From positions 1 to 33,172 of the forward strand of contig CALEVZ010000021.1 of the NCBI GenBank assembly GCA_937924755.1: a stretch of DNA of 33,172 nucleotides, given 5' to 3'. The stretch comes from an uncultured bacterium. GTDB taxonomy: Bacteria > Acidobacteriota > Thermoanaerobaculia > Thermoanaerobaculales > Thermoanaerobaculaceae. Each line of letters begins with the position of its first letter. Position 1 is the stretch's first letter. The translations under genes were made by a program, and so were the position numbers. This document shows positions 3,256 to 23,048 of the stretch, piece by piece. The notes under the pieces are model-generated. The model was not told where the DNA came from. It searched no databases and worked only from the letters and a program-made list of their open reading frames with translations.

Positions 3256-3702
3256 ATGGACGTCCTCGAGGAACGCGTGAACGGCGTGCTCGTGCTCCTA
3301 CCGGACGGCCGCCTGGATGTGGCCGGCGCCGCCGACCTGCAGCTGGCTGCCATCCGACTCGTGGAGGCTGGCGAACGCAGGGTAATCGTGGATCTGAATC
3401 GGGCCAGCGAAGTCAGCGGCGCCGCCTTGCGAGTCCTGTTGATGCTCGGCAAGCGGCTGGCTGGCCTGGGGGGGGCACTGGCGGTGTGTGGGATGGCGGA
3501 GGAGGCCCGCCGGGCTCTGGAGGTGGCGGGGCTGGGCGAGGCGATCCAGGTGGCGTCGACCCGCACCGAGGCCCTGGCCGGTGTCAGCTTTGCGGGGAGC
3601 GAGAAGCAGCGGGTCGCAAAGGTCACCGAGCTGGCGGCTCGCCTGCTCGGCGCCGCACCCAAGGCAGGCAAGAAAAAGGTGATAAAGGCAGAGGGGAGCT
3701 AG
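3256..3702 (+). CDS. STAS-domain protein (anti-sigma-factor antagonist-like)
   Basis: This 148-residue protein is a STAS domain (residues ~1-105) followed by a short basic tail rich in Lys. The core reads DGRLDVAGAADLQ...VIVDLNRASEVSGAALRVLLML, matching the SpoIIAA fold. The serine before glycine (VSGAAL) aligns with the site phosphorylated by anti-sigma kinases, so phospho-switching is possible. Such proteins normally bind a GHKL-type anti-sigma kinase in the cytosol. No kinase of that type is encoded here, so any partner would lie elsewhere. The start is ATG at 3256, preceded by GGGAGGG at 3244-3249. A TTG two codons upstream is less likely. It converges with the cyclic-nucleotide/FHA gene. 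Confidence 0.8.
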   Translation: MDVLEERVNGVLVLLPDGRLDVAGAADLQLAAIRLVEAGERRVIVDLNRASEVSGAALRVLLMLGKRLAGLGGALAVCGMAEEARRALEVAGLGEAIQVASTRTEALAGVSFAGSEKQRVAKVTELAARLLGAAPKAGKKKVIKAEGS

Positions 3703-3754: not shown

Positions 3755-3770
3755 AGCGGCGGACGCCGCT
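3755..3770. terminator. Possible hairpin between convergent genes
   Basis: AGCGGCG-GA-CGCCGCT forms a GC-rich inverted repeat between the STAS gene and the convergent FHA gene, touching the latter's stop codon. It has no T-tract on either strand, so termination by it is uncertain. Confidence 0.3.
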
Positions 3771-5761: not shown

Positions 5762-7263
5762 ATCAGCTCCCTCTGCGCGCCATTGCCTTCGACCTCTACG
5801 GCACCCTCCTGGCGCTGGATAACCCCCTCCTGCACCGGGAGATCCCGAGGTTGTTTGGGGTCCCGGGACGGCGCTGGCTGCACCTGGTGCGCCACACCTT
5901 GCTCCGCCGCCCTTTCCCAGATACCGCTGCCATGGCCGCCGCCATCGCCGAGGAACTGGGCGCCCCCGCTCTGGCGCCCCGATGCGAGCAGCTCCTGCGA
6001 GCAGAGGTGGCCTCCGCGCGGCTGCTGCCAGGCGTGGTGACGACCCTGCAGTTCCTCGCCCGGCGCGGCTTCAAACTGGGGCTGATCTCCAACCTCTCCA
6101 GTGCCCACACCGCACCGCTGGAGGCTTCCGGGCTGGCTGACCTTTTCGACGCCAGCGTCCTCTCCTGCCGGGACGGGGTGGTCAAACCGCAAGCTGAGGC
6201 GTATGTACTGCTCTGCCAGCGGCTGGATTTGCCGCCGGAGCAGGTGCTGCTGGTGGGGGATTCCCTGGCCAACGACGTGCTCGCCCCGGCGGCGCTGGGG
6301 ATGCCGGTGGCCCGGGTGGGGCCGGGGAGCGGCGGAGATGACCTTGCCAGCGTGGCCGAGCTGGGGTGGCGACAGCTGACCGGGGACTTGCCCCTCACCC
6401 CCCTCCTCGCCCCCGGCGTGGCAGTTCCTTCGCCCGAGGGCGCGGCCGTCATCACCCGGCTCCAACCCGTCGGGGAGGACGAGCGAGGGCGGTACAACCT
6501 GGTGTGCCGGGTGAGCGCCCATCTCGACGCCAGTCCAACCAGGGAACTCACCTTCTTCGCCAAGCGCTACCTGGACCCGGCCTCCGCTCGCCTGGAGGCG
6601 CTGGGCCATCGGCTGCAGTTCCTCTACGACCTGCCCGCCTGCCGAGCGGTCGTGCACGGCGAGGAGGAATTCATCCTGCTGGTCTCCGCCGCGCCCGGGC
6701 TGCCCCTCTCCGGCGCGCCGGATCCGCCAACCGCCTTCGAGATCGGCCGGCAGTTCGCCTTCGGCTACGTCTTCGCCAACGCCGACCTGCGGCCGCGCAA
6801 CATGCTGCTGGATGCCACCGCCTCCCCGCCGCGGATCACCACCTTCGACCTGGAGCACCTGCTGTTGAACCTGGCCGTGGAGGTCGCCCAGTTGCCCGAC
6901 CCCCTGGATCCGCACGCCATCGACGCTCTGCCCCGGCAGCACCTGAGCAGCCTGGTGAAACGGCGGGTGCTCTCCCCTCGCACCCTGCCGCGGGCGCGGG
7001 GCGAATTCTTCGACGTGCGCCAGGCCCCCCAGGAGGTCACCCGGGCGTTCGGGCGTGGCTTCCTCGACCAGTACGAGCTGCTCAAGTCGGGCCGACGACA
7101 GCTGCTGGAGCTGGTGCGGGAGCAGGTCTACACGCCGCCGTATCTGATTGCTGGCACCCGCGCCTACCGGCGCGCCCTGGCGGCCATGGATCTGGAGGAT
7201 CTCGAGGGACGCCTGGCCGAGGACCCGGTGGACGTACTCGCTTTGCTCCTCGCCCCACGATGA
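5758..7263 (+). CDS. HAD hydrolase fused to a kinase-like (APH/LanM-type fold) domain
   Basis: This 501-residue protein has two enzyme-like halves. Residues ~7-205 are a HAD-family domain with FDLYGTL (Asp12; the second Asp is replaced by Tyr14, as in haloacid dehalogenases), SNLSS, the Lys of VVKPQ, and GDSLANDV. Residues ~225-480 look like a protein-kinase/aminoglycoside-kinase fold: FFAKRY gives a candidate ATP-binding Lys269, NADLRPRN gives Asp343 with the Asn partner, and TFDLEH gives Asp364. No membrane segments are seen. The GTG start overlaps the activator stop (GTGA), so the two are co-translated. The lanthipeptide precursor follows after 191 nt. The substrate is unknown; it may act on a protein of this locus. 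Confidence 0.75.
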   Translation: MNQLPLRAIAFDLYGTLLALDNPLLHREIPRLFGVPGRRWLHLVRHTLLRRPFPDTAAMAAAIAEELGAPALAPRCEQLLRAEVASARLLPGVVTTLQFLARRGFKLGLISNLSSAHTAPLEASGLADLFDASVLSCRDGVVKPQAEAYVLLCQRLDLPPEQVLLVGDSLANDVLAPAALGMPVARVGPGSGGDDLASVAELGWRQLTGDLPLTPLLAPGVAVPSPEGAAVITRLQPVGEDERGRYNLVCRVSAHLDASPTRELTFFAKRYLDPASARLEALGHRLQFLYDLPACRAVVHGEEEFILLVSAAPGLPLSGAPDPPTAFEIGRQFAFGYVFANADLRPRNMLLDATASPPRITTFDLEHLLLNLAVEVAQLPDPLDPHAIDALPRQHLSSLVKRRVLSPRTLPRARGEFFDVRQAPQEVTRAFGRGFLDQYELLKSGRRQLLELVREQVYTPPYLIAGTRAYRRALAAMDLEDLEGRLAEDPVDVLALLLAPR

Positions 7264-7454: not shown

Positions 7455-7802
7455 ATGGCTGAACTGACTCGTGGAGAAGTGCAGGACCTTATCGCTGGTT
7501 TCGCCATCAAGAACCCGGAGTACCGCCAGGCGCTGCTGGCCAAGCCGCGCGAGGTGGTGGGGGCGCAGATGGGGACGGAAATCCCGCCCTCGGTGAAGGT
7601 GACCATCATCGAGGAAAAGCCCGACGAGTTCCACATCATCCTGCCCTACCAGCCCAAGGAGGGCGAGGAGCTGTCGGACGCCGATCTCGAAGCGGTGGCC
7701 GGCGGCGGCAAAAAGGGCGGCAGGACCGACACCACGTACAAGTGCGACGTGAGGTCGAGCGGCTTCGGCACGCACGTGGAAGTCAACGCCCGCGTCTTCT
7801 AA
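7455..7802 (+). CDS. Lanthipeptide precursor with NHLP (nitrile-hydratase-like) leader
   Basis: This 115-residue peptide has an ~84-residue leader of the nitrile hydratase alpha-subunit-like type. The leader shows NPEYRQALLAKP, IPPSVKVTIIEEKPDEFHII and LSDADLEAVAGG. Cleavage by a C39 peptidase is expected after Gly84, leaving a 31-residue core rich in Gly and Lys that ends in VF. The core has four Thr, two Ser and one Cys (core residue 13), so at most one lanthionine or methyllanthionine ring can form and other sites could remain dehydrated. A second Gly-Gly follows five residues later (GKKGG), an alternative cut site. Start: ATG at 7455 with AAGGAG 7 nt upstream. It follows the sigma-54 promoter and precedes lanM. 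Confidence 0.9.
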   Translation: MAELTRGEVQDLIAGFAIKNPEYRQALLAKPREVVGAQMGTEIPPSVKVTIIEEKPDEFHIILPYQPKEGEELSDADLEAVAGGGKKGGRTDTTYKCDVRSSGFGTHVEVNARVF

Positions 7803-7869: not shown

Positions 7870-10800
7870 ATGAAAAGCATCTCCGCCCCACCGCACCTCG
7901 CCGACGCCCGGCCAGGCCCAGGGCCGGACAGTCGTGCTCTGGTGGAACTGGTCGCCGCCCGCGCCATGTCCCTGGAGGAGGTGCTGTCCGGTCGCCGGTA
8001 CGGGGAGACCGTCGCCGGCCGCGAAGCCGCAGGCTTGCTGGAGCGCTGGAGCCGCATCTTTGCCGGCGGCGATCGCGCCGCCCTGCAGCGCCGGCTGGCC
8101 TGGGACGGGCTCGATGAGCGCCTCATCGCCGCTGCTCTGGACGGTCCCCCGGCCCCGGCGATCCCGCCCCACCTGCACGTCCTCCCGGAAATCCTTACCG
8201 AGCCCGTTTTCCAACCCCCCCCGTCCAACGGGGAGGAGGTGCCCTTTGCGCACCTGGTCATCCCCTGGGTGCACCATGCCCGCCGGCGCCTCGCCGCCCT
8301 TCTCCCGAACCTCGCGACGTTGGTCGCTCCGGCAGCGCTGCAAGTCGCCGAGCGGCACCTGCTGGAGCAGCTCTCGGCGGCGGCGACCATGGCCCTGTAC
8401 CAGGAATTTGAAGCCTTTCGCTCCTCCTACTACCAGTCCAACTCCGTGGTCAGCGGCACCCTTCCCGGAGACCACGTCTACCGCGCCTTCGTGGACAGCT
8501 TGCGGGGCCCGCGGCTGGCCGCCTTCCTGGCCGCCTACCCGGTGCTGGCCGTCCACCTCTGCCTGCTGTCCTGGCAGTGGACCGAGGGGATGGCTGAGTT
8601 GGTCATCCGGCTGGCGAACGACCTCGTAACTCTGACCGAATCGTTCGCCGGCGGTGACGCTCTCGGCCCGCTGGCGGCCCTGGAGATGGGCCTGTCGGAC
8701 CGCCACGCCGGTGGCCGCCAGGTGGCCGCTCTCCGCTTTGCCCGGGGCATAGAGGTGATCTACAAACCCCGCGACGTCACCCTGGAGGCGGCGTGGGCGG
8801 AGCTGGTGAGGTGGCTCGAGAGGGAGGGGCTGGACTGCGCCCCGCCCGCACCGCGGGTGCTGGCCCGCCCCGGCTACGGCTGGGTGGAGAGAGTGGGGGC
8901 GGAAGAGGTCAGCGACGAGGCCGACTTTGCCCGCCGCGCCGGGGCGCTGGTGTCCCTGGCGTGGCTGCTTGGCGGCATCGACCTGCACGAGGACAACGTC
9001 ATTGCCACCGCCCACGGCCCCGCGCTGATCGACGCCGAGGCCCTGCTGCAGCCCCTGCGCACCGACCTCACCCGCGCCGCGGCCGGCTCGATCCTGGCCA
9101 CCGGTCTGCTCACCTTCCCCATCATCACCGCCCAGGGGTCACTGGTGGACGCCGGGGGTCTGGTGGGGGGGGCCAGGTCCCCGTCGCCGCACCGACAGTG
9201 GGAGGACGTCAACACCGACGCCATGCGGCCGGTGTCGCGGCCCTCGCCGGCGCGCTCGCCCGCCAACCTTCCCCGCACCGAAGGACAACCGTGGAGACCC
9301 ACCCGGCGTCGGGCAGAGCTGGAAGAAGGTTTCGGGGAGGCCTACCGCTTCTGCCTGGCCCATCGTCACCGGCTGCTGGATCCCGGCGGACCGCTGCGGC
9401 ACTTCTCGTTGGCCGAGCCGCGATTGGTTTTCCGCCCCACCGAGTCCTACGTGCGCCTGCAACGGGCGCTCTTCGCCCCCGCCTACCAACGGCTGGGGGT
9501 GGAGCGCAGCATCGCCCTGGACGCCCTCAACCGGGTGTTCGCCACCTCGCCCCGACGCCCTCCCTTGTGGCCGCTGGTGGCCGAGGAACGTGCTGCCCTG
9601 GAGCGGCTCGACATCCCTCGCTTCACTATCTCGGCCACCGCCGAGGCGCTGGTCGCCGCCAGCGGCGAGGTGATCCCCGGCGTGGTGGAGCGCTCGGGGT
9701 GGGCCAGCCTGGCTAACCGCCTGCAGGGGCTGAGCGAGCAGCAGCTGGCGCACTACCTCCACCTACTGCAGGTGTGCGCCGCCACCCAGCCCCTGGCCGA
9801 CGAGGAGGCATGCCCAGGCGATGCCGAGCGGGAAGCCGCCCTGGCCGCCTGGCGCGAGGCACTGCGGGCTGCTGCCGTACGCTGTGGGGAAGAGGTCGAG
9901 GACGCCATCTTCGCTGACCGGATCGCACCGGCGCTCGCCCAGTGGGGAAATCTCGACGCCGCCGACCTCTACCACGGCCTGCCCGGGGCGGCGCTGCTCT
10001 TTGCCGCCCTCCAGCAGGCCACCGGCGAGCCCCGCTGGCGTTCCCGGGCCAGAGCCTGCTGGCAAGCCGTCCTTTCTCAGCCGGAGCCGCCGGAAAGCCT
10101 CGGTGCCTGTGAAGGCGTGGGCGGACGCCTCTACGCCCTCGCCCTGCTGGCCGCCCTCTGCGACGACGCCGACGCCGCCGACGCCGCCCGGCGCCTGCTC
10201 GCCGCCTTCCCCCGACAGGCCATCCGGGGCGATGCGCGGCTTGACGTCCACGCAGGCAGCGCCGGAGCGGTCCTGGGCTTGCTGGCCGCTTTCGCCATGC
10301 TCGGCGAAAAAAGGGCCGTCGCGCTGGCCCAGGAGTGCGCCCAGCACCTGCTAGCGGCCCAGCGCCCCGAGGGGGGCTGGAGCCCCGCCGGGGCCGCCGC
10401 CCCCGGGTTTGCCCACGGCGCCGCCGGCATTGCCTGCGCCCTGGCGAGGCTGGCCGCGGTCACCGGCGACGCTCGCCTGGCTGAGGCGGCCCGCCGCGGC
10501 TTCCAGTTCGAGTTCTCCCTGTTCGACACCCGTCGACAGGGGTGGCGAACCCCGGTCCACAACCCCGGCAGCGTCAGTCGCCACGTGTCCATGAACGCGT
10601 GGTGCAACGGCGCGCCGGGGGTGGCCTTGGCCCTCGCCACGTCCGCACTACCCGCCTCTGAGCGGGTCGGCCTTGAGCAGGCTCTGGCCGTCACCCGCGC
10701 CTGCGGTCTGGGTGGACTTGATCACCTCTGCTGTGGTAATCTTGGCATTATCGATGTGCTGCTAACAGGCGGGCAGTGGCTCGGGCAGGAGTCTCTGATA

Positions 10801-11010
10801 GGCGCGGCTACTGCAAGGGGGATCGTGGTTTTGCGACGAGCGATGGGCAGCGACACCTTCGCCGTGGAGGAAGCGGTGGCAACACCGGGCGTGAGACTGG
10901 GACTGTTTCACGGTCTGGCGGGCGTCGGCTACCAGGCGTTGCGCCTGGCGGCTCCGGCGACGTTCCCCTCCCTGCTGGCCTTCCTCCCGCCGGGAAACGG
11001 CCAGCCATGA
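7870..11010 (+). CDS. lanM: LanM class II lanthipeptide synthetase, CCG type
   Basis: This 1046-residue bifunctional enzyme phosphorylates and dehydrates Ser/Thr, then adds Cys thiols. The N-terminal dehydratase has a kinase-like core with IYKPRD (Lys299) and GGIDLHEDN (Asp371) followed by LIDAEALLQP. The C-terminal LanC-like cyclase has DLYHGLPG, the His of FAHGAAG, and the zinc ligands Cys912 (WCNGAPG) and Cys954-Cys955 (LCCGNLG). Two adjacent cysteines instead of Cys-His place it with the CCG group typified by ProcM, known for relaxed substrate choice. Length is normal for LanM. The start ATG follows GGGGGAG at 8-nt spacing. Its stop overlaps the GNAT start (ATGA). Confidence 0.94.
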   Translation: MKSISAPPHLADARPGPGPDSRALVELVAARAMSLEEVLSGRRYGETVAGREAAGLLERWSRIFAGGDRAALQRRLAWDGLDERLIAAALDGPPAPAIPPHLHVLPEILTEPVFQPPPSNGEEVPFAHLVIPWVHHARRRLAALLPNLATLVAPAALQVAERHLLEQLSAAATMALYQEFEAFRSSYYQSNSVVSGTLPGDHVYRAFVDSLRGPRLAAFLAAYPVLAVHLCLLSWQWTEGMAELVIRLANDLVTLTESFAGGDALGPLAALEMGLSDRHAGGRQVAALRFARGIEVIYKPRDVTLEAAWAELVRWLEREGLDCAPPAPRVLARPGYGWVERVGAEEVSDEADFARRAGALVSLAWLLGGIDLHEDNVIATAHGPALIDAEALLQPLRTDLTRAAAGSILATGLLTFPIITAQGSLVDAGGLVGGARSPSPHRQWEDVNTDAMRPVSRPSPARSPANLPRTEGQPWRPTRRRAELEEGFGEAYRFCLAHRHRLLDPGGPLRHFSLAEPRLVFRPTESYVRLQRALFAPAYQRLGVERSIALDALNRVFATSPRRPPLWPLVAEERAALERLDIPRFTISATAEALVAASGEVIPGVVERSGWASLANRLQGLSEQQLAHYLHLLQVCAATQPLADEEACPGDAEREAALAAWREALRAAAVRCGEEVEDAIFADRIAPALAQWGNLDAADLYHGLPGAALLFAALQQATGEPRWRSRARACWQAVLSQPEPPESLGACEGVGGRLYALALLAALCDDADAADAARRLLAAFPRQAIRGDARLDVHAGSAGAVLGLLAAFAMLGEKRAVALAQECAQHLLAAQRPEGGWSPAGAAAPGFAHGAAGIACALARLAAVTGDARLAEAARRGFQFEFSLFDTRRQGWRTPVHNPGSVSRHVSMNAWCNGAPGVALALATSALPASERVGLEQALAVTRACGLGGLDHLCCGNLGIIDVLLTGGQWLGQESLIGAATARGIVVLRRAMGSDTFAVEEAVATPGVRLGLFHGLAGVGYQALRLAAPATFPSLLAFLPPGNGQP

Positions 11011-11972
11011 CGGTCACCTTCGCCCTGCTGGAGCCGCCCGTCGCCCCGTCGTTCGAGGGGATGACCTTCCCGGCCTATCGCCATCTCCTCGCCCTCGCGC
11101 CAGCTCCCACGCTGGTGCACGAGCCCACCGCTCGCCAGGTGCAACCGCTGGCGATGGCCGCCCTCCGGGAGCGCGAACCCGCAGCCCTGGCCCTGGTGGG
11201 CCTGCCGCTGGAGGGGGACGAGCCGCCAGAGCTCCTCTCCCTCTACGTGGTCCCGGCTTCCCGCGGGCAGGGGGTGGGCCGCGCCCTGCTGGCCGCCCTG
11301 GAAGGGGAGATCGCCAGCCGCGGGTTCGCCTCGCTGGGCACCGTTTTCACCGCCTCGGCGCCGGGCAGTCCGGCCTTCTCCCGGGTGCTGGCGGCACGTG
11401 GCTGGACCACCCCGCAGCCGCGCACCCTGCTCATGCGCTTTTCCTACGAGCAGGCGCAGCAGTTCCCCTGGCTGAATCGCTACCCCGTGCGGGAGGGGTG
11501 CGAGATCTTCCCCTGGCGGGAGCTCACCCCGGCCGAGCGACAGCAACTCATCGGCTCCCAGCGGGAGAGGGGATGGATCGCCCAGGATCTGGTGCCGTGG
11601 CGGTGGGACGAGCATGGCTTTGAACCCGTCACCTCGGTGGGCATGCGCTCTCCCGAAGGGGTGGTGGGGTGGGTGATCAACCACGCTCTCGACGAAAACA
11701 CCCTGCGCTTCACCTGCAGCTACATCCGCAAGGACTACGGCCGGCGGGGACGCATCCTGCCGCTTTATTCCGAATCCATCAACCGCATGAAGGAGGGGGG
11801 GTTCACCCGCTGCTCCTTCGTTGCCCCGTTGCACCACGCCACCATGGCGGCGTTCGTGCGCCGCTGGATGGCGCCGTGGGCGGGAACCTTGCAGGAAACC
11901 CTAGGCTCAACCAAGAGCCTGGTCAGCCCGGCAGCCACGCTGTCAGCGGCTATGGCCCCACCGGAGGAGTGA
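11007..11972 (+). CDS. Tandem GNAT-type acyltransferase, probable lanthipeptide tailoring enzyme
   Basis: This 321-residue protein has a clear GNAT fold in its N-terminal half. The acetyl-CoA loop is LYVVPASRGQGVGRALL (RGQGVG at 86-91), followed by an SPAFSRVLAARGW region. The C-terminal half, around residues 170-300, resembles a second degenerate GNAT unit (SYIRKDYGRRGRILPLYSES at 238-257). GNAT enzymes transfer an acyl group from CoA to an amine. The ATG overlaps the LanM stop by 4 nt, which argues for coupled synthesis and a role in the same pathway. Possible targets are the Lys residues of the core or the new N-terminus, but self-immunity by acetylation is also possible. It is cytosolic, with no signal peptide. 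Confidence 0.8.
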   Translation: MTVTFALLEPPVAPSFEGMTFPAYRHLLALAPAPTLVHEPTARQVQPLAMAALREREPAALALVGLPLEGDEPPELLSLYVVPASRGQGVGRALLAALEGEIASRGFASLGTVFTASAPGSPAFSRVLAARGWTTPQPRTLLMRFSYEQAQQFPWLNRYPVREGCEIFPWRELTPAERQQLIGSQRERGWIAQDLVPWRWDEHGFEPVTSVGMRSPEGVVGWVINHALDENTLRFTCSYIRKDYGRRGRILPLYSESINRMKEGGFTRCSFVAPLHHATMAAFVRRWMAPWAGTLQETLGSTKSLVSPAATLSAAMAPPEE

Positions 11973-11975: not shown

Positions 11976-13931
11976 ATGAGGTGCCCTATGCGTTACCCGA
12001 TCATCGCTGCCATCCCCGCGGTGGTGGTGAGCCTGTCAGCCGCCGCTGCCGAGCCGCCCCTCCCCCAACCTGACTACCAGCCGCCACTGCTCTCCCAGCG
12101 CAGCATCCCCTTGCTGGAGGCCATCAGGATCACGCTGGAACACGATCCGGCCATCAAGCTGCAGGCGGAAACTGTGCGCCAGCGCCGCGGCCTCGCCCAG
12201 CAGGCCGCCGGCTTGTTCGACCTCACCCTACTCGGTACGGCGAGCTACGAGTATGTGCAGTCGGAGTTTTCCACCCGCGAGCGTGAAGCGATGCAGAAAA
12301 AGCGGGACGACATCCGCAAGGACCTGGAAAAGACGGAGAACCGCCTGCGGGATTTGCAAGAGCGGTTGGACGAAATCCTCGCCAACCGCGACGCCCTGCT
12401 GGAAGGGCGCGAGCCGCCAATCCGCTTCGACGACCCCCTGCTGGAGGCGCAGTTCCAGCTCCTCTACCAGCGCTACCTGGAGGCACCGCCGGAGGAGAAG
12501 CAGCAGATTCTCAACGATCTGTTGGCCATCCTGCGTTCCAAAGAGCTGCAGGTGCGCGCCGACATGGCCGACGATCTGGCGAGCGCCGCCGAAGCCCGGG
12601 AAAAGCTGCGCAAGCTTGGCACCGTGCCGCGCATCCAGCGTTCCTACGAGGGTGCCCTGTCGCTGCAACTCACCAAGCTCTACCGCAACGGCATGAGCTT
12701 GGCGCCGTTCGTCGACCTGTCCGGCGGCGGCCTGTCCTACCAGGGCAAACCAAAGGATGAGGAGTTCGGCGGCCCCGGCGTCAAGGACTCCTACAACGCC
12801 CGCATCGGGTTTTCCGTGGGCATCCCCCTGGGCCGCGGCCGGGGACTGGCCTCCGCCGGCGCCGTCGAGCAGGCGGCGATGCTGGACGTGGCCGCCAGCC
12901 TGGACGCCCTCACCCACGCCGCCGCGGTGAGCGTGCTCAACACCACCCTGGCCTACTGGAGCGCCCTGGCGGCGCAGCAGGTGGTGGAGGTGCACTCCCG
13001 GTCAACGCAGCTCCAGAGCCAGCTCAAGGAGCTGGCGGAAGTGCTCATCCAGGCCGACGAGCTGCCCCGCGTGGAGCTGGTACGGGTGCAGGCCCGGGAG
13101 GCGGAGGTACAGGCCCTCCTGGAGGGCTCCCGGCGGGCCGCCCACGAGGCACGCCTCGCCCTGGCCCGCACCATGGGTCTGGAGGTGCTGGCCACCACCG
13201 ATGCCCCCACACCTGAGGACGACTTCCCCGCCGTTCCTGCCCGGGTGGAGCTGGCCTGCGCCAACGCCAGTCAACTCGCTGCCGCGGCGCTCGAACGGCG
13301 CCTAGATTACCGCGCCGCGGTGCACCTACAAGAGTCGGGGAAGGTGCTCTGGCGGGCCGCCGCCATTGACCTGGCGCCGCGGGCCGACCTCACTTACTCC
13401 ACCTGGTACGGCGCCCTCGCCGAGGACAGTGACGTGCTGGAGGGCCTGAAAGGGGTCGCCAGCGGCCGCTGGGCCGGCCCCAGCGCTCGCCTTGGCCTCA
13501 CTTACGAGAAGCCCTACGAGAACAACGCTCAAAAGGGCAAGCTGGAGGTGGCCGCCGCCGGCTTCCGGCAGCGCGCCATCACCACCCGCGACCTGGAACG
13601 CATTATCAAGGCCTCCGTGGTGCGGGAGCTGGCCTCTCTGCGAGAGGCGGCCCGGCAACTGGCGCGCACCGAGGAGGCGGTGGCGCTGCACCGGCAGGCG
13701 GTGGAGAACGAGATGGAGAAGCTGCGCATGGGCGCCGCTACGGTGATCGACACCATCCTCACCGAGCAGCGCTACGTAGATGCGCAGCTGTCGCTCATCG
13801 CCGCTCGCCAGCAGGTGGCGCAGATCCTGGCGCGCCTGCGCTACGAAACTGGAACGCTCGTCACCACCGACGCCGGCGGCGCTTTCGTAAGTCGGGACGA
13901 CCTGGGGGCGCTGCCGCCCCTGGGGGAGTGA
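11976..13931 (+). CDS. TolC-family outer-membrane efflux protein, copy 1
   Basis: This 651-residue protein has a signal peptide (cleavage near SAAAAEPP) and the helical repeats of the outer-membrane efflux family. It forms the outer-membrane tunnel of type I secretion. It is much longer than E. coli TolC. The extra part, around residues 90-215, is a charged coiled coil (for example KKRDDIRKDLEKTENRLRD). The block KLYRNGMSLAPF...GIPLGRGRG is shared with the next gene, showing a tandem duplication. Start: ATG at 11976 with GGAGGAG (11963-11969) overlapping the end of the GNAT gene; an ATG four codons in is also possible. It lies 3 nt after the GNAT stop, clearly in the operon. Confidence 0.88.
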   Translation: MRCPMRYPIIAAIPAVVVSLSAAAAEPPLPQPDYQPPLLSQRSIPLLEAIRITLEHDPAIKLQAETVRQRRGLAQQAAGLFDLTLLGTASYEYVQSEFSTREREAMQKKRDDIRKDLEKTENRLRDLQERLDEILANRDALLEGREPPIRFDDPLLEAQFQLLYQRYLEAPPEEKQQILNDLLAILRSKELQVRADMADDLASAAEAREKLRKLGTVPRIQRSYEGALSLQLTKLYRNGMSLAPFVDLSGGGLSYQGKPKDEEFGGPGVKDSYNARIGFSVGIPLGRGRGLASAGAVEQAAMLDVAASLDALTHAAAVSVLNTTLAYWSALAAQQVVEVHSRSTQLQSQLKELAEVLIQADELPRVELVRVQAREAEVQALLEGSRRAAHEARLALARTMGLEVLATTDAPTPEDDFPAVPARVELACANASQLAAAALERRLDYRAAVHLQESGKVLWRAAAIDLAPRADLTYSTWYGALAEDSDVLEGLKGVASGRWAGPSARLGLTYEKPYENNAQKGKLEVAAAGFRQRAITTRDLERIIKASVVRELASLREAARQLARTEEAVALHRQAVENEMEKLRMGAATVIDTILTEQRYVDAQLSLIAARQQVAQILARLRYETGTLVTTDAGGAFVSRDDLGALPPLGE

Positions 13932-13945
13932 GGGGGACCGACGCC

Positions 13946-15916
13946 ATGGCCTCGCGTCCGCGCACCCTTTCCATCGTTGCCCTGCTGCTGGCCCTGTCCG
14001 CCGTGGCCACCCCGGCGTGGGCCGGGCAGCGCCCCCCCGAACCCTTAAACCCCTATGCCCCCGTCACCCTGTCCACCCCCCGCCTCACCCTCCGCGAGGC
14101 CATCGACCTCGCCCTGGCCAACGACCCCGGCCTGCATCTGGCGCGGGAGCAGGTGACCGCCAGCCGTGGCAGCTTGCTTTCGGCCTCGGGAGCCTTCGAC
14201 ACAGTCTTCGCCGTCGGCCCGGCCTTCGAGCACCAGACCAGCGTCGTGGGGCGACCTGGGATGCGCAACCAGGAGCTGCTGCGCAACCTCTCCCGGGAAA
14301 TTGCCACCACTTTCCGGCTCATCGCCGACGACCTGCGCCGCCAGCTGGACCTGCAGGGCAACATCCCCCTCATTCAGTGTCCGCCGGGACTGGTCATCAC
14401 CATCGGCGGCGAGCCGGTCTGCCTGTCCAACCGCGAGCGGGCGCAGTGGGAGATCATAGAGATCATCACCCGCCGCCCGGAGCTGGAGCCGCAGCGGCGC
14501 ACCCTGGAGGAGGCGGCCCGCCGGCGCGCCGAGCAAATTGCCCTCATCCTCGATATCACCGCGCTGGCCAGCCGCGGCCTGCTGCGCACCATGGGGGTGC
14601 GCGCCACCCTGGAGGATCGCACCTCCATCGAGCTGCAGCTGTCGGCCGCCAAGCTTTACCGCAACGGCATCGCCGTCACCCCGCTCCTGGCTTTTTCGGG
14701 CAGCAAGGACAACTACCGCGGCAAGCGCCTGGACCCCACCTACGGCGGCAAGGGAAACCTCAACACCTTCACCTCCATTGCCGGATTGAGCCTGGAGGTG
14801 CCCCTGGGCAAGGGGCGGGGTGAGGCCGCCACCGGTGCCGCCGAGCGGGCGGCTCGGCTGAATCTCGCGGCCAGCCTGGAGAAGGAGGCCCACGCCGTCG
14901 CCGGGACCGTCCTGCGCACCCTGCTGGCCTACCTGGAGCTGGCCGCCGCCCAGGAGAAGCTGGAGCTCTTCACGGCTTCCGAGGAGCGGCAAGCCTCCCT
15001 GGTGGCCATGGGCGAGGCCCTCCAGAAGGCGGGCGAGCTGGCCGAGGCCGATCTCATTACCGTGCGGGCGCGCCTGGCCTCCACCCGCACCGCCGTTGCC
15101 CAGGCCTGGCAGAGTGTGGCCGAGGCTCGCATCGCCCTGGCGGAGACGATGGGGCTCGCGGTGGAGAAGCTGGAGGAGGCGCCACTGGCCGCCGAGATGC
15201 TACCGCCGCCCCCCGCGGAGAGTGAGCTGGACGCCTGGCGGCAGCAGCAGCTGGCCCAGGCGGCCCGCGCCCTCCGGGCCGACCTCAAAGCGGCTCATCG
15301 TCTCGAGGAGTCGGCGCGAGAACTCGCCGAGGCGGCCCGGCTGGATCTGCGGCGCTTGAGCACATTGTCCTTCCAGGCGTGGTACCAGGGGCTGTGGGAG
15401 GGCAAGAGCCCGAAAGACATGCGCAACGTGCTGGTGGGGTGGGAACGCGCCCTATTCGGCGGCCAGGTGGGACCCTCGGCCCGCCTGCTGCTCACCGTGG
15501 AGTGGCCGTTCGCCAACAACGTCGCCCGCGGCCGCTACCTGGAGGCCCGCGCGCTCTATCACTCCGGCGGCATCCAGGCCCGCAACCTGGAACGGGTGAT
15601 CGCCGGGCGGGTGGAAGAGCTCACCGGGGCAGTGCTCAAGGCCCGCGCCGAGGTGGCTCGAGGGCAGGCGGCGGTGGAACTCTACGACCAGCTCATCGAG
15701 ACGGAGGTGGAGCGCTTTCGATTGGGGGAGGCCACCGCCGCCGACCTCGTGCTCACCGAGGAGAACCGCATCGGCGCCGCCCTTGCCCTGGTCGCAGCCC
15801 GTCAACGCCTGGCCACGGCGGTAGCGCAGCTGCGCTTCGAGCTGGGCACCCTGGTGCGCTACCGCATCTCTAACCAGCGGGTGGTGGTGGAGGGCATCCT
15901 CCCCGCCGCCGGATGA
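13946..15916 (+). CDS. TolC-family outer-membrane efflux protein, copy 2
   Basis: This 656-residue paralogue of the preceding protein has a clean signal peptide that ends in TPAWA before GQRPPEP. The conserved core KLYRNGIAVTPLLAFSG...VPLGKGRGEAATGAAERAA aligns with copy 1, and both end in a RLRYETGTLV/QLRFELGTLV helix. The inserted domain differs: here it holds a Cys pair (CPPGLVI and GGEPVCL) in place of the charged coiled coil. I chose ATG at 13946, preceded by AGGGGG, over the overlapping GTG at 13928 because it gives a standard signal peptide. The two copies may form separate or mixed trimers. Confidence 0.87.
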   Translation: MASRPRTLSIVALLLALSAVATPAWAGQRPPEPLNPYAPVTLSTPRLTLREAIDLALANDPGLHLAREQVTASRGSLLSASGAFDTVFAVGPAFEHQTSVVGRPGMRNQELLRNLSREIATTFRLIADDLRRQLDLQGNIPLIQCPPGLVITIGGEPVCLSNRERAQWEIIEIITRRPELEPQRRTLEEAARRRAEQIALILDITALASRGLLRTMGVRATLEDRTSIELQLSAAKLYRNGIAVTPLLAFSGSKDNYRGKRLDPTYGGKGNLNTFTSIAGLSLEVPLGKGRGEAATGAAERAARLNLAASLEKEAHAVAGTVLRTLLAYLELAAAQEKLELFTASEERQASLVAMGEALQKAGELAEADLITVRARLASTRTAVAQAWQSVAEARIALAETMGLAVEKLEEAPLAAEMLPPPPAESELDAWRQQQLAQAARALRADLKAAHRLEESARELAEAARLDLRRLSTLSFQAWYQGLWEGKSPKDMRNVLVGWERALFGGQVGPSARLLLTVEWPFANNVARGRYLEARALYHSGGIQARNLERVIAGRVEELTGAVLKARAEVARGQAAVELYDQLIETEVERFRLGEATAADLVLTEENRIGAALALVAARQRLATAVAQLRFELGTLVRYRISNQRVVVEGILPAAG

Positions 15917-15965: not shown

Positions 15966-17111
15966 ATGCAAGGTAAGCTCTTCCGCAAGGCGGCGCTGGA
16001 GAAGCTCTCCTCCCCGGAGCGGCTGGACGTGATGATGAAGGTCACCTCGCCCAGCGGCTGGCTGGCCCTGGCGGCGCTGGGGTTCATCATCTTCATGGTG
16101 GTGGCCTGGAGCATCGTCGGCAGCATCGCCATCAAGGTAGACGGGCGCGGCATCCTGCTGCGAGGTGGCTCGGTTTACGAGGTCAACTCCATCGGCTCCG
16201 GCCGCCTGGTGGAGGTGGGTCCGAAGCCCGGTGACGTGGTGGAGGTGGGGCAGGTGGTGGCCCGCCTGGACCAGCCCGAGCTGCGCCTCAGGATCGCCAA
16301 CATGCGGGAGGAGCTGGCCGCCCTGGCGGGCCGCGGGGCGGAACAGCAGCGCGCCCAGGCCAACATCCTCGCCCGCTACCAGCGGCAGGCGGCGGAGCTG
16401 CGCGAGAAGATCGCCGTGCAGGAGCAGATGGTGGCCCGCGGCCTGCTCACCCGCACCCAGCTCATGCAGACCCAGCAGGAGCTCACCGCCACCGAGCAGG
16501 CCATGGCCAACATCCGCGCCACCGAGGCCGGCACTGGGCTGCGGGTGGACGAGGTGCGGCGGCAGATCGTCGAGCTCGAGAGCCAGCTCGCCTCCCAGTC
16601 GGAGGTGCGCAGCCCTTACGCCGGCCGGGTGCTGGAAGTGATGGTCAATCCCGGCGACCTGGTGACCGCCGGCAGTCGCATCCTGACCCTGGAAGACACC
16701 AAGGAGACCATTCAGGCGATTCTGTTTGTCCCCGCCTCCGAGGGCAAGAAGGTGCGGCAGGGGATGCGGGCGTTTATCTCCCCCTCCACCGTGCGGTCCG
16801 AAGAGTACGGCTTCATGCTGGCCGAGGTCAGGGACGTGTCCGACTTCCCCCTTACCCCCGAGGGGATGGTGCGGGTGCTGCGCAACCAGGCGCTGGCCCA
16901 GGAGCTGGCCGGCAAGGGGGCCCCCATCGCCGTGACCGCCATTCCCATCCCCGACCCCGGCACCGAGAGCGGCTTCAAGTGGTCCTCCTCCAAAGGGCCG
17001 CCGGTGCGGGTGTACTCCGGCACCCTGTGCTCGGGATCCATCCAGGTGGAGACCAAGCGGCCCATTTCCTACGTCATCCCCATCGCCAAGAAGGCGGTGG
17101 GGCTAGGCTAG
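15966..17111 (+). CDS. NHLM-type HlyD-family secretion adaptor (membrane fusion protein)
   Basis: This 381-residue protein links the inner-membrane ABC exporter to TolC across the periplasm. A single membrane helix lies at about residues 32-56 (WLALAALGFIIFMVVAWSIV). A split lipoyl domain follows (GSGRLVEVGPKPGDVVEVGQ ... SPYAGRVLEVMVNPGDLV), with a coiled-coil hairpin between the halves at ~105-205. The short cytosolic N-terminus and the C-terminal beta region match the NHLM secretion-protein family. Start: ATG at 15966 after AAAGGAGGT. It sits 49 nt after the second TolC gene and 9 nt before the peptidase-ABC gene. Confidence 0.9.
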   Translation: MQGKLFRKAALEKLSSPERLDVMMKVTSPSGWLALAALGFIIFMVVAWSIVGSIAIKVDGRGILLRGGSVYEVNSIGSGRLVEVGPKPGDVVEVGQVVARLDQPELRLRIANMREELAALAGRGAEQQRAQANILARYQRQAAELREKIAVQEQMVARGLLTRTQLMQTQQELTATEQAMANIRATEAGTGLRVDEVRRQIVELESQLASQSEVRSPYAGRVLEVMVNPGDLVTAGSRILTLEDTKETIQAILFVPASEGKKVRQGMRAFISPSTVRSEEYGFMLAEVRDVSDFPLTPEGMVRVLRNQALAQELAGKGAPIAVTAIPIPDPGTESGFKWSSSKGPPVRVYSGTLCSGSIQVETKRPISYVIPIAKKAVGLG

Positions 17112-17120: not shown

Positions 17121-19346
17121 ATGGCCGCCCAACCCCAGGAGGCACCCCGCACCATCCCGCCGCCCCCTGCCCGCCGAGTGAAATGCCCGACCATCTTGCA
17201 GATGGAGGCGGTGGAGTGCGGCGCCGCGGCGCTCGCCATCGTCCTAGGCTACTTCGGCAAGATCGTGCCGCTGGAGGAGTTGCGCCAGGAGTGCGGGGTC
17301 TCCCGCGACGGCTCCAAGGCCTCCAATGTGGTGAAGGCGGCGCGGCGCTACGGGCTGCAGGCCAAAGGGCAGAAGTTCGAGAAGATCGAGAGCCTGTACG
17401 AGCTCAAGTTCCCCTGCATCCTGTTCTGGAACTTCAACCACTTCCTGGTGCTGGAGGGGTTCGGGCGGAAAGGGCAGGTGTACCTCTCCGACCCCGCCGA
17501 GGGACCCCGCACCGTCACCCTGGAGGAGCTGGACGCGTCCTTCTCCGGCGTGGTCCTGACCTTCGAAGTGGGGCCCGAGTTCAGCCCCTCCGGCGAGAAA
17601 CCCAGCATGGCGGCGGCACTCAGGCGGCGCCTGGAGGGCAGCGAGGCGGCGCTGGCCTTTGCCATCCTGTGCGGCCTCTTCCTGGTGGTGCCGGGGCTGG
17701 TGATCCCCACCTTCTCGCGGGTGTTCATCGACGAGTACCTGATCGCCGGGCGGCGCTCCCTGGTGACGCCGCTGATCGCCGGCATGGTGCTCACCGCGGC
17801 GCTGCGCATGGGGCTGACCTGGCTGCAGGAAACCTACCTACTGCGCATGGAGTCGCGACTGGCGCTCACCACTTCCTCACAGTTCTTCAACCATATTTTG
17901 CGTTTGCCGGTGTCCTACTTCGCCCAGCGGTTTGCCGGGGAGATCGGTTCGCGGGTGGAGATCAACGACAAGGTGGCCTCCCTCATCTCCGGGCGCCTGG
18001 CCACCACCGCCCTCGACTGCCTGCTGCTGGTCTTCTATGCCGTCCTGATGATGCTCTACGACGTGGTCCTCACCCTGGTGTGCATCGCCATCGCCCTCAC
18101 CAACATCGTTGCCGTAAAGCTGGTGGCGCGTCAGCGCACGGACGCCGCCCGCCGCCTGCTACAGGACTACGGCAAGCTCACCGGCACCGCCATGAACGGC
18201 CTGCGCATCCTGGAAACCCTCAAGGCTTCCGGCTCGGAGTCGGAGTTCTTCGCCCGCTGGGCCGGCTATCAGGCCAAAGCGCTGCGCTCCCAGCAGCAGC
18301 TCATGCAGCTGTCGGAGTTCATCAACGCCGTACCGGCCACGGTGTCCAGCGTCACCACCGCGGTGATCCTGCTTTTGGGCAGCCTCAAGGTGATGAACGG
18401 CGAGCTCACCGTCGGCATGCTCGTCGCCTACCAAAGCCTGATGGCGTCGTTCACCAAACCCCTCAATACCTTCGTGTCCTTCGGCGGGGCCGTGCAGGAG
18501 CTCGAGGCGGACATGGCGCGCCTGGATGACGTGCTGCGCTTCCCCGTCGACCCCCAGTACACCCGCGACGAGCGACCGTCCGTGGAGATCCTAAAGCGGG
18601 CCGCGCCGGCCCCGCGCAAGGAGATGATCAAGCTTTCGGGCGAGATCGAGCTGCGCGGCGTCACCTTTGGCTACTCCCCCCTGGATCCTCCGCTGATCGA
18701 GGGCTTCAGCCTGCACGTCAAACCGGGACAACGGGTGGCCTTCGTGGGGCGCTCGGGCTCGGGAAAATCCACCGTCTCCAAGCTGGTGACCGGGCTTTAT
18801 CGCCCGTGGAAGGGGGAGATCCTCTTCGACGGCATCCCCATGGACGAGCTGCCCACGGGGCTGCTGCGCAACTCCCTGGGTGCGGTGGATCAGGAGATCT
18901 TCCTGTTTGCCGGCACCATCCGCGAAAACGTCACCATGTGGGACTTTACCATCCCCCTCACCTCCATCACCGCCGCCTGTCGCGATGCGGCTATCGACCA
19001 CGACATCCAGACCCGCATGGGCAAGTACGACTCGCCGGTGGAGGAGCACGGCGCCAACTTCTCCGGCGGGCAGCGGCAGCGGCTGGAGATCGCCCGTGCC
19101 CTGGTGGGCAACCCGACCATCCTGGTGCTGGATGAGGCCACCTCGGCGCTGGACCCACCGACGGAACTGATGGTAGACGAGGCCATCCGCCGGCGGGGCT
19201 GCACCTGTATCATCGTCGCCCACCGCCTGTCCACCATCCGCGACGCCGACGAGATCATCGTCATGGACCGCGGCAAGATCGTCCAGCGCGGCACCCACGA
19301 CGAGATGAAGGACGTTCCCGGCCTGTACCGGGATCTCATCCACTAG
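17121..19346 (+). CDS. NHLM peptidase-ABC exporter (C39 peptidase, permease, ATPase)
   Basis: This 741-residue protein cuts the leader at the Gly-Gly site and exports the product. The N-terminal C39 peptidase has Cys33 (VECGAAALA), His107 (NHFLVLEG) and Asp124 (SDPAEG), so it is intact. Residues ~165-450 form the six-helix permease. The ATPase has Walker A GRSGSGKST (~541), signature FSGGQRQRLEIARAL, Walker B ILVLDEATSALD and the switch His in IVAHRLST. The match to the precursor's AVAGG site supports its role. It lies 9 nt after the adaptor gene and 9 nt before the second ABC gene. Confidence 0.94.
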   Translation: MAAQPQEAPRTIPPPPARRVKCPTILQMEAVECGAAALAIVLGYFGKIVPLEELRQECGVSRDGSKASNVVKAARRYGLQAKGQKFEKIESLYELKFPCILFWNFNHFLVLEGFGRKGQVYLSDPAEGPRTVTLEELDASFSGVVLTFEVGPEFSPSGEKPSMAAALRRRLEGSEAALAFAILCGLFLVVPGLVIPTFSRVFIDEYLIAGRRSLVTPLIAGMVLTAALRMGLTWLQETYLLRMESRLALTTSSQFFNHILRLPVSYFAQRFAGEIGSRVEINDKVASLISGRLATTALDCLLLVFYAVLMMLYDVVLTLVCIAIALTNIVAVKLVARQRTDAARRLLQDYGKLTGTAMNGLRILETLKASGSESEFFARWAGYQAKALRSQQQLMQLSEFINAVPATVSSVTTAVILLLGSLKVMNGELTVGMLVAYQSLMASFTKPLNTFVSFGGAVQELEADMARLDDVLRFPVDPQYTRDERPSVEILKRAAPAPRKEMIKLSGEIELRGVTFGYSPLDPPLIEGFSLHVKPGQRVAFVGRSGSGKSTVSKLVTGLYRPWKGEILFDGIPMDELPTGLLRNSLGAVDQEIFLFAGTIRENVTMWDFTIPLTSITAACRDAAIDHDIQTRMGKYDSPVEEHGANFSGGQRQRLEIARALVGNPTILVLDEATSALDPPTELMVDEAIRRRGCTCIIVAHRLSTIRDADEIIVMDRGKIVQRGTHDEMKDVPGLYRDLIH

Positions 19347-19355: not shown

Positions 19356-22300
19356 ATGAGCGACGCGACTTTCTCGCCCCGACCCATCTCGGCCGCTCTG
19401 GTGGTGGTCTCCAGCGACCTCGAGGGCCTGCCCGGCCGACGCATCGACCTGGCCGCCCCCGTGCGCATCGGCCGCAGCGAGGAGTGTGACCTGGTGCTGG
19501 CGGTGCAGACGGTTTCTCGACGCCACGCCGAACTCACGCCCACCGCCTCCGGCTGGCTGCTGCGGGATCTGGGCAGTGCCAACGGCGTCTGGCTGGGGCA
19601 GCAGCGCATCCACGAGCACTCCTTGCGCGATGGCGACGAGTTCCGCCTGGGGGGTACGGTGCTTCGCTTCGAGGCCAGTTCCGCCCCCCCACCGGCCGCC
19701 GTGCCGCCCCCCCCACCGGTCGCCCCCCTGCCAACCAGGGCACCGGCGGCCCCACAGCAACCCCCAGCCAAGCCGGCCGAACCCCAGCCGAAAGCCACCG
19801 TGCCACCACCAGAGGTCCCGGGCCCGGCGCCAGCGCCGCCAGCCCCAGCACCGCCAGCCGGGCCCGGCCGGCCGGAGGCCGTCGAGGTCCACCCCCAGCC
19901 GACGCTCCCCCGCGCCGAGCCCGCCCCCGAGCCAGCGCCACCCGCCCCCACCGGGCCAGCCGCCCCGGGCGAGGCGCAACCCCCCGGGGAGCCTGCCAGC
20001 GCACCGGCAGCCCCGGTGCAGGCCGCTTCCTCTCTGCGGGCGACGCTGGTGCGGGAGGGGGAGGCCCAGGAGGCCAGCGGCAACCGACCGTTCCTGCTCT
20101 CCGCCCCCGGCACCGCCTGGTACGTGGAGGAGGGCAAGGTGGAGGTGTTCACCGTCGCCATCGACCGTGGCGGCAACCCCACCGGGCCCCGCACCCACTT
20201 CGCCACCATCAACGCCGGTGAATTGATGCTGGGCATGGACTTCGCCGGCTGGGGGCTGAGCTCGGGCTTCCTCGCGGTGGGCCGCATGGGTACCCGACTG
20301 CGCCGCCTGCCCACCGCCCGCCTGCAGCAGCTGGCCCGCGATCAGGCGCTGGCGGCCGAGCTTGCCGCCCTGGTGGACGAGTGGATCCTCAACCTGTCGG
20401 ACAACCTCACCCGAGAGATCGCCCCCGGCCCCAAGGCCGACGTCCCCCTGGCTGAGACGGGGGAGGCAACCATCGACAACCAGAAAGCCGCCCGCCCCGG
20501 ACGCGGCGTGGTATGGGTCGAGGTCATCGAGGGCAACCTGCTGTTCGTCGGCCTGGAGCAGCTCATCTTCGACCAGCCCTCCGCCGGCGAGCGCGCCGGC
20601 ACCCACTCCATGGCGGTCAAACTGGGCGACCTCATCGAGCGGGCGCAGCGCCGCCGCGCCCTTTTCCCCCTCACCGGGCACACCTGGGTGGAGGCCGCCA
20701 ACGCCCGGGAGATCGCCACCCGGGTGCGCTGCGCCCCCTCGGCGGGGGTGCTGGGCGACGGGGCGGCCTGGCGCGGCCTCGACCTCTTCCACCAGGTGCT
20801 CTGCCAGTGCGAGTTCGTCAACAAGAAGCTGGCCCTGGTGGACGAGTACCGGCGCCTCAAAAGCAAGGCGGAGTACTCCGAGGCGGCGAGGGAAGCCGGC
20901 TTTCGCGAGATCGCCTCGGTCATGGAGGACACCGCCGCTGCCGCCCCGGCGGCCACCCCGGTGGAGGACCCCACTTTCGCCGCCTGCGTGCTGGTGGGCG
21001 AGGCGCTGGGCATGCAGGTGCGCGACCACCCCGAGGCCGCCAAGGGGGCCTCCTTCGAGGACCGGGTGAACGCCATCGCCAAGGCCTCCCGCTGCCGCAC
21101 CCGGGCGGTGATGCTGCGGGACGACTGGTGGCGCTCGGACCACGGCCCCGCCCTGGGGCGCTGGGAAGAGGGTGGCGGGCCGGTGGCGCTGCTGCCCGAC
21201 GGGCCGCGCCGTATGCTGGTGGCCGACCCCGGAACCGGCGAGCGCACCGTCGTAACCGAGGAAGTGGCGGCGCGCATCTCTCCCCAGGCGGTGGTGTTCT
21301 ACCGCCCCTTCCCCGACGGCCCGCTGTCCGTCAAGCACCTGATTCGCTTCGGCGCCCGTGGGCTGGCGGGCGACCTGTGGATGCTCATCGGCATGGGGAT
21401 CGCCCTGGGGGTGCTGGGGGCCCTGACCCCCTACTTCACCGGCCGGCTGTTCGACTCCGCCATTCCCCAGGCCGACCGCAACCTGCTGGTGCAGTACACC
21501 GGCGGCCTGTTCGTCGCCGCCTTCGCCGCCGCCGCCTTCAAGCTCACCCAGTCCATCGCCGTGCTGCGCATCCAGGGGCGCATGGACTACTCCATCCAGG
21601 CGGCCCTGTGGGACCGCCTGCTGAACCTGCCGTCCACCGCCTTCCGGGAGTACTCCTCCGGTGATCTGGCCGACCGCGCCGCCGGCATCAACGAAATCCG
21701 GCGGCTGGTGGCCGGCGCCGGCATCGGCGCGGCGCTGGGCTCGCTGTCGTCAGTCTTCTACGTCGTCCTCATGTTCAAGTACAGCCTGGTGCTGGCGCTT
21801 TCTGCCATCGGCCTGACGCTGCTGTACGTCGCCTGCACCACCACCTTCAACTACCTGCAGCTGCGCCAGCAGCGCCAGGAGATGCAACTCTCCGGCGCCA
21901 TCACCGGGCTCGTGCTGCAGTTCATCTCCGGGGTGGGCAAGCTAAGGGTGGCCGGTGCTGAAAACCACGCCTTCCGGGTGTGGGCCAGCCTTTATGCCCG
22001 CCAGCGGCGGCTGGGCTTCATCATCGGCAAGATCAAGAACGCCGCCCAGGTGTTCTCCGCCGGCTTCCCGGTACTGGCCCAGGCGGCCATCTTCTACGCC
22101 CTCGTCCAGCAGCAGGAGAAGGCGGCCGCCGCCGGTACCGCCGCCGCCATGAGCACCGGCGACTTCATCGCCTTTGCCGCCGCGTTCGGCGCCTTCCTGG
22201 CGGCCACCCAGGCGCTGGGGGACGCTTCCCTGGATCTCCTGCGGGTGGTGCCCATCTACGAGCGTCTGAAGCCCATCATCACCACCCCGGCGGAGCTGGA

Positions 22301-23048
22301 CGAGACCCGCGCCTATCCTGGCCGGCTGCGGGGGGACATCGAGGTGTCCCACGTTTCCTTCCGCTACTCCGAGGACGGCCCCTGGGTGCTGGATGACCTC
22401 TCGGTGAAAATTCGCGCCGGCGAAATGGTGGCCTTCGTGGGGGGCTCCGGCTGCGGCAAGTCCACCCTGATGCGCCTGCTGCTGGGGTTTGAGTCCCCTC
22501 AAAAGGGCTCCCTGTACTTCGACGGCCAGGACCTGGCCGCCCTCGACCTGCGCGAGGTGCGCCAGCAGATCGGCGTGGTGCTGCAGACCTCCCAGCTGCT
22601 GCCCACGGACGTGGCGCGCAACATCCTGGGCTCCACCGGCCTGGGCATCAACGACGCCTGGGAGGCGGCCACCCTGGCGGGCCTGGCCGACGACATCCGC
22701 GCCCTGCCCATGGGCATGCACACCTACATCTCCGAGGGAGGCGGCGGCTTTTCCGGCGGGCAGCAACAGAAGATCCTCATCGCCCGAGCCCTGGTCCGCA
22801 AGCCCCGCATCCTGATCTTCGACGAGGCCACCTCGGCGCTCGATAACCGCTCCCAGGCGACGGTGACCGAGTCCATGGAGCGGCTGCAGGCCACCCGCAT
22901 CGTCATCGCCCACCGGCTGTCCACCATCGTCAACGCCGACCGCATCTGCTACCTGGAGGGCGGCCGCATCATCGAGGAGGGCACCTTCGAGGAGCTGATG
23001 GCGCTGGGCGGCAAGTTCCACGCCCTCGCCAAGCGGCAGATGGCGTGA
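19356..23048 (+). CDS. NHLM second ABC transporter with N-terminal FHA domain and Pro-rich linker
   Basis: This 1230-residue protein joins four parts. Residues ~13-105 are an FHA domain with Gly39-Arg40, Ser54-Arg-Arg-His57 and Asn76 (GSANGVW), the residues needed to bind phosphothreonine. Residues ~109-225 are a low-complexity Pro/Ala linker. A long middle region (~240-640) follows, with a cyclic-nucleotide-domain-like start, as in other NHLM ABC2 proteins. The C-terminus has six membrane helices (~665-965) and an ATPase with GGSGCGKST, FSGGQQQKILIARAL, ILIFDEATSALD and IAHRLST. NHLM ABC2 proteins usually pair with the peptidase-ABC protein. The FHA and linker are an addition not expected in the family. 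It is the last gene of the operon. Confidence 0.92.
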   Translation: MSDATFSPRPISAALVVVSSDLEGLPGRRIDLAAPVRIGRSEECDLVLAVQTVSRRHAELTPTASGWLLRDLGSANGVWLGQQRIHEHSLRDGDEFRLGGTVLRFEASSAPPPAAVPPPPPVAPLPTRAPAAPQQPPAKPAEPQPKATVPPPEVPGPAPAPPAPAPPAGPGRPEAVEVHPQPTLPRAEPAPEPAPPAPTGPAAPGEAQPPGEPASAPAAPVQAASSLRATLVREGEAQEASGNRPFLLSAPGTAWYVEEGKVEVFTVAIDRGGNPTGPRTHFATINAGELMLGMDFAGWGLSSGFLAVGRMGTRLRRLPTARLQQLARDQALAAELAALVDEWILNLSDNLTREIAPGPKADVPLAETGEATIDNQKAARPGRGVVWVEVIEGNLLFVGLEQLIFDQPSAGERAGTHSMAVKLGDLIERAQRRRALFPLTGHTWVEAANAREIATRVRCAPSAGVLGDGAAWRGLDLFHQVLCQCEFVNKKLALVDEYRRLKSKAEYSEAAREAGFREIASVMEDTAAAAPAATPVEDPTFAACVLVGEALGMQVRDHPEAAKGASFEDRVNAIAKASRCRTRAVMLRDDWWRSDHGPALGRWEEGGGPVALLPDGPRRMLVADPGTGERTVVTEEVAARISPQAVVFYRPFPDGPLSVKHLIRFGARGLAGDLWMLIGMGIALGVLGALTPYFTGRLFDSAIPQADRNLLVQYTGGLFVAAFAAAAFKLTQSIAVLRIQGRMDYSIQAALWDRLLNLPSTAFREYSSGDLADRAAGINEIRRLVAGAGIGAALGSLSSVFYVVLMFKYSLVLALSAIGLTLLYVACTTTFNYLQLRQQRQEMQLSGAITGLVLQFISGVGKLRVAGAENHAFRVWASLYARQRRLGFIIGKIKNAAQVFSAGFPVLAQAAIFYALVQQQEKAAAAGTAAAMSTGDFIAFAAAFGAFLAATQALGDASLDLLRVVPIYERLKPIITTPAELDETRAYPGRLRGDIEVSHVSFRYSEDGPWVLDDLSVKIRAGEMVAFVGGSGCGKSTLMRLLLGFESPQKGSLYFDGQDLAALDLREVRQQIGVVLQTSQLLPTDVARNILGSTGLGINDAWEAATLAGLADDIRALPMGMHTYISEGGGGFSGGQQQKILIARALVRKPRILIFDEATSALDNRSQATVTESMERLQATRIVIAHRLSTIVNADRICYLEGGRIIEEGTFEELMALGGKFHALAKRQMA

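Follow-up and report, generated by a model that had tools for sequence, protein, structure and literature searches.

A Conserved FHA Domain on NHLM-Type ABC Exporters of Acidobacteriota and Its Possible Role in Phosphorylation-Controlled Lanthipeptide Export

The ABC2 subunit of an NHLM exporter, encoded in a 33,172-nucleotide stretch of DNA from an uncultured bacterium of the Thermoanaerobaculaceae (the window), carries an N-terminal FHA domain with an intact phosphothreonine (pThr) pocket, and such fusions on ABC2 are neither general nor a one-off. We consider it probable that this domain subjects the exporter to a Ser/Thr-phosphorylation signal that docks onto it, gates it or clusters it, with pThr binding, the threonine that is bound, the kinase and an on/off effect each putative. 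The FHA would act as a working pThr reader, flexibly tethered to the cytoplasmic N terminus of one ABC1/ABC2 exporter half. It would dock at a phosphorylated threonine, belonging to a partner protein or, for some relatives, to the linker of the exporter itself, and docking would cluster, position or gate the exporter. The LanM-modified NHLP peptide could thereby be exported in response to a Ser/Thr-kinase signal, the kinase being either a HAD-kinase-like protein of the operon or a genomic Hanks kinase. The preliminary description of this DNA had likewise proposed phospho-control of the exporter, and the invariance of the pocket, an FHA on ABC1 in one member, tandem FHAs in three and the linkage of kinase-like and phosphatase genes point the same way; against it stands the finding that no canonical Hanks kinase occurs among the window ORFs scanned.

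Architecture of the FHA-ABC2 protein

The fusion is encoded by a single ORF (19356..23048, + strand) of 1,230 aa with an ATG start. Its FHA domain (aa 36-99, positions 19461..19652) matches PF00498 at an E value of 1.7e-18 and 67.2 bits against the Pfam gathering cut-off of 20.7 and holds the Arg/Ser/His/Asn pocket, which together place it in that family. The ABC2 permease/ATPase part (aa 537-1229) belongs to the NHLM ABC2 exporters, since it covers the full length of TIGR03797, NHLM_micro_ABC2 (model 1-686 of 686), at 884.1 bits against the NCBIfam cut-off of 709.4. Within it, Pfam places ABC_membrane (675-948) before ABC_tran (1012-1160), that is, TMD then NBD. Both models thus exceed their cut-offs in one ORF, as expected from the fusion first proposed in the preliminary description, and the Pro/Ala linker proposed there is also present, with 59% Pro+Ala over about aa 108-230. 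In the predicted structure of aa 1-536, the FHA block has a pLDDT of 90-97 and the linker mostly 42-57, which is read as disorder. Between the linker and the ABC2 model lies a region of confident predicted fold (aa about 226-530) that we name cNMP-like by resemblance, Pfam having no match there. The earlier view of the ABC2 as otherwise ordinary holds for the TIGR03797 match (884 bits) but passed over this cNMP-like N-terminal region, which is common to other ABC2 proteins. What sets the window ABC2 apart from other NHLM ABC2 exporters is the extra N-terminal FHA and linker.

The pocket residues named earlier, R40, S54, H57 and N76, are all present under the same numbering. Across 24 fused FHA domains aligned from 21 loci, R40, S54 and H57 are invariant (24/24) and N76 is kept in 22/24, both exceptions being second copies of tandem FHA pairs; in all, alignment positions 39, 40, 54, 55, 57, 71, 74 and 77 do not vary. 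The conserved pocket is the strongest indication of selection for phosphopeptide binding. The FHA could instead be a constitutive scaffold that holds the exporter, LanM or regulators via a stably phosphorylated or unphosphorylated partner, with no switching. Such a role is compatible with the conserved fusion, its long flexible linker and the tight conservation of the operon, but it sits poorly with exact retention of the pThr pocket (its Arg, Ser and His) in 24/24 domains and with the kinase-like and phosphatase genes described below, which travel with the system and would be unneeded by a static scaffold; we therefore regard it as unlikely, though it deserves weight.

Distribution of FHA-bearing exporters

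ABC2 homologues were checked for FHA domains in relatives that are nearly all Acidobacteriota MAGs, several of them Thermoanaerobaculia (one locus, L082, is labelled Deltaproteobacteria), with loci representing identical DNA counted once. ABC2 occurs in 26 of the 119 related genomes, the window's own included, at 31 places: 13 have an FHA on ABC2, 1 has it on ABC1, 2 have a cut N terminus and 15 have none. Outside the class, a phylum draw of 396 genomes gave 16 ABC2 places, 3 with two tandem FHAs (one of them represented by L084) and 13 with none. Among 13 plasmid ABC2 loci of Pseudomonadota, Cyanobacteriota, Actinomycetota and Bacteroidota (13/14 ABC2 records covered, with H13 left out), no ABC2 carries an FHA, and even with E values as high as 10 allowed, the FHA model hits none of the 472 ORFs of these loci. 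As a positive control, the same model detects 24/24 fused domains, 12 of which form its training set.

In an ABC2 tree of 50 rows, every FHA system falls in one clade of 22 rows with support of 100/100, and the members of this clade come from several families and at least two classes. It comprises 15 rows with FHA on ABC2, 3 with tandem FHAs, L060 with FHA on ABC1, the cut rows L028 and L079, and L059 with none; outside it are 27 rows with no FHA and one cut row. The loci labelled cut (L028 and L054, whose N termini are cut, and L079) count neither for nor against. L087 and L093, whose FHA-bearing ABC2 has a cut 3' end, are absent from the tree but contribute to the alignments of FHA domains and of linkers and to the neighbour table, which therefore has 24 clade loci (the 22 tree rows plus these two). 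The preliminary description had named carriage of the domain by most ABC2 proteins as one outcome that would undo its reading. We rejected the FHA as a general ABC2 feature on the 0/13 plasmid loci and on its absence from 28/50 Acidobacteriota tree rows.

The exceptions within the clade are informative. In L060, ABC1 rather than ABC2 carries the FHA, which is preceded by a long Pro-rich stretch, and both subunits are above their TIGR cut-offs; this suggests that the whole complex rather than a single subunit needs the FHA. The ABC1 of L079, its sister in the tree, ends at a contig edge inside a Pro/Ala/Gln stretch and its ABC2 is complete without an FHA, which fits but does not prove an L060-like arrangement. 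Neither ABC subunit of L059 carries an FHA, so the domain is dispensable there. Together with the 12 FHA matches in the window's own genome, L059 could favor the view that the FHA is an evolutionary passenger with no part in export, picked up from among the numerous FHA proteins that these genomes encode. Conservation of the pocket across such a taxonomically broad clade argues against that view, as do the tandem copies and the ABC1 placement in another member, and we give it hardly any credence.

Operon context, candidate ligands and candidate kinases

The FHA-ABC2 gene ends a run of + strand genes in the order sigma-54-type AAA, HAD plus kinase-like, NHLP precursor, LanM, GNAT, two TolC-like, HlyD, ABC1 and FHA-ABC2. 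These are a sigma-54 activator-type AAA protein conserved upstream of the precursor (4616..5761; PF00158, 193.8 bits), the HAD hydrolase fused to a kinase-like domain (5758..7263), the NHLP-leader precursor peptide (7455..7802; TIGR03793, 70 bits, cut-off 50.9), the LanM class II lanthipeptide synthetase (7870..11010; TIGR03897, 575.7 bits), a GNAT-like protein conserved in the operon (11007..11972; PF00583), TolC-like outer membrane proteins 1 (11976..13931) and 2 (13928..15916; both PF02321), the HlyD-type NHLM adaptor (15966..17111; TIGR03794, 341 bits) and ABC1, the C39 peptidase/permease/ATPase of the exporter, here without FHA (17121..19346; TIGR03796, 1085 bits). ABC1, HlyD and precursor all exceed their cut-offs, which sets the fusion in an NHLM exporter context. 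Upstream of this run, the window has a STAS gene and a divergent cNMP-FHA gene, both described below. The upstream gene order of the window is found again in L067, L068, L069, L072 and L073, and in L074 and L076 without the HAD-kinase gene.

LanM enzymes first phosphorylate Ser/Thr and then eliminate the phosphate, and the FHA might therefore bind precursor cores that carry phosphothreonine as an intermediate of LanM action, the exporter capturing or retaining unfinished peptide. FHA clade loci with enough DNA do carry LanM, and a Thr is retained close to the end of the precursor cores. However, L048 and L061 (no FHA, outside the clade) and L059 also match LanM, so LanM does not require an FHA, and the Thr of the window core has no I, V or L at +3 (T-H-V-E); we judge this reading very improbable. 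The cores themselves (window, L067-L070, L072, L074) are short, similar across genomes and mostly have a single Cys, and their conserved end, like T-x-V-E-I-x-A-S-L-F, contrasts with variable bacteriocin cores. The cyclase of the window LanM has WCNG and LCCG motifs, which we take to resemble the CCG-type zinc site of promiscuous ProcM-like enzymes.

A ligand on the exporter itself is a candidate in some relatives. The motif T-x-x-[IVL] occurs 29 times in the linkers of 16/20 FHA-ABC2 proteins, compared with a mean of 12.8 motifs in 9.7 loci for shuffled linkers (p 0.0014 for loci, with relatedness among loci uncorrected), and ten loci place one such motif 31-33 residues before the cNMP-like region. 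The linker of the window protein lacks it, as do those of its closest relatives, L041-L043, and the ligand of the window FHA would therefore be another protein. PMC5549992 reads FHA ligands as pThr with a preferred +3 residue and describes binding of FHA I of Rv1747 to a pTRVV-containing motif of Rv2623.

The protein at 5758..7263 is a candidate writer and/or eraser of the phospho-signal. Its description as kinase-like stands as a distant relation to Hanks kinases, but the resemblance is confined to a C-terminal domain fused to a HAD hydrolase. HHalign relates this domain to local Hanks kinases with 92.9% probability (one-pair E 3.8e-7), the controls LanM and GNAT reaching 7% and 0.2%, and the invariant Lys, the loop NADxRPRN and the DxE are present in 6/6 homologues, without HRD. 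It has no Pfam match at E 5 save chance ones in two other members, a PDB profile search returned chance-level matches only, and its single-sequence fold has a mean pLDDT of 38.8, too low to use. HAD family IA enzymes act mostly on small-molecule substrates. The protein occurs in 11/119 genomes. It is present in 9/14 FHA-exporter genomes and missing from 5/14, whereas only 2/105 genomes without such an exporter have it (Fisher p 1e-8, kinship uncorrected); those two are G001 (82% complete) and G101, and no ABC2 was found in either.

Pkinase gives 16 matches in the window's own genome. In the neighbour table, Hanks-kinase-like ORFs lie at 5/24 clade loci (L050, L055, L084, L089, L121) versus 2/27 outside rows without FHA (L064, L119), and six clade loci (L046, L047, L055, L056, L084, L110), but no other locus of the table, have FHA-GAF-SpoIIE genes; these counts are indicative only, because clade loci had more DNA covered than others. 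At L092, a Pkinase gene follows ABC2. FHA-GAF-SpoIIE phosphatase genes were also noticed at L084, L091, L086, L072 and L073, in several cases adjoining STAS and cNMP-FHA genes, and the three together look like a partner-switch-like regulatory block.

In the window, a STAS-domain protein (3250..3702, + strand; PF01740) adjoins such a cNMP-FHA gene. The preliminary description had pointed to an FHA protein at 3769..4509 as part of a local phospho-switch; the FHA is real (PF00498, 50.3 bits), and the gene lies on the - strand, divergent from the operon, and also encodes a cNMP-binding domain (PF00027, 90.6 bits). This domain resembles TIGR03896, cyc_nuc_ocin, the bacteriocin-transport-associated cNMP protein (41.6 bits), but the protein stays under that model's cut-off of 161, has a C-terminal FHA instead and belongs to a family also found away from exporters. 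The cNMP-FHA gene is present at 11/24 clade loci, the remaining loci being mostly cut before that region. Since the family occurs in 98/119 relatives, most without an FHA exporter, this neighbour gives weak support to a phospho-switch, and we rejected it as strong evidence.

Comparison with known FHA systems

The closest known parallel is Rv1747 of Mycobacterium tuberculosis (FHA-FHA-NBD-TMD), which also has FHA and a disordered linker on an ABC exporter, and one FHA of Rv1747 is the best PDB sequence match of the window FHA (6cah, E 1.5e-9). Rv1747 has two FHAs, as do three relatives here. PknF, encoded in the Rv1747 operon, phosphorylates Rv1747 (PMC3908365, PMC9312465) and is a canonical Ser/Thr kinase (PMC3908365), whereas the operon here holds a kinase-like gene, a remote domain fused to HAD. 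In the Rv1747 papers (PMC9312465, PMC5549992, PMC3908365), phosphorylation is described as promoting condensates of the Rv1747 FHA region in vitro, and Rv2623, by binding FHA I, is interpreted as acting negatively. By analogy, the window exporter likely works like Rv1747. It is not a member of the Rv1747 type, however, because its domain order differs: FHA is on an ABC exporter in both, but the order FHA-NBD-TMD is replaced by FHA-linker-cNMP-like-TMD-NBD, in an NHLM peptide exporter with a C39 peptidase partner. By fold, the nearest structures to the window FHA are the switch proteins GarA and OdhI (Foldseek E about 2e-9). In GarA and OdhI, the phosphorylated tail is bound by the protein's own FHA. 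Some linkers here hold T-x-x-[IVL] in a comparable way, but the window linker does not, and its FHA is fused to a membrane exporter.

A literature search by title and start of abstract, which covered few subscription journals, returned no fusion of an FHA to an NHLP, lanthipeptide, bacteriocin or type I secretion exporter. Our results suggest that in this acidobacterial lineage a kinase signal sets when or where the modified peptide leaves. More tentatively, and with somewhat less than even confidence, we propose a lanthipeptide lineage with export under Ser/Thr-phosphorylation control, an FHA on either the ABC1 or the ABC2 subunit and a dedicated HAD-phosphatase/kinase-like writer and eraser, a phospho-gated RiPP exporter independent of Rv1747. 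If so, RiPP secretion would be controlled by protein phosphorylation after synthesis, beyond transcription, and the control of ABC exporters through FHA domains, as studied in Rv1747, would have more than one origin. The clade offers natural variants for direct comparison: an FHA on either ABC1 or ABC2, single or tandem FHAs, and a member without FHA.

Several minor features of the locus were also recorded. Promoter and terminator patterns in 2200-8000 were not clearly above shuffles, and no tRNA gene was found in the window. An alkaline phosphatase gene (24316-26043; PF00245) lies after the operon, and its linkage was not found in relatives with the BLAST query used. The two adjacent TolC-like genes (window 11976-15916) differ from each other, and this doublet is conserved in many FHA-clade loci; in L039 (2714-4678), TolC1 consists of two same-frame ORFs with one stop between them.
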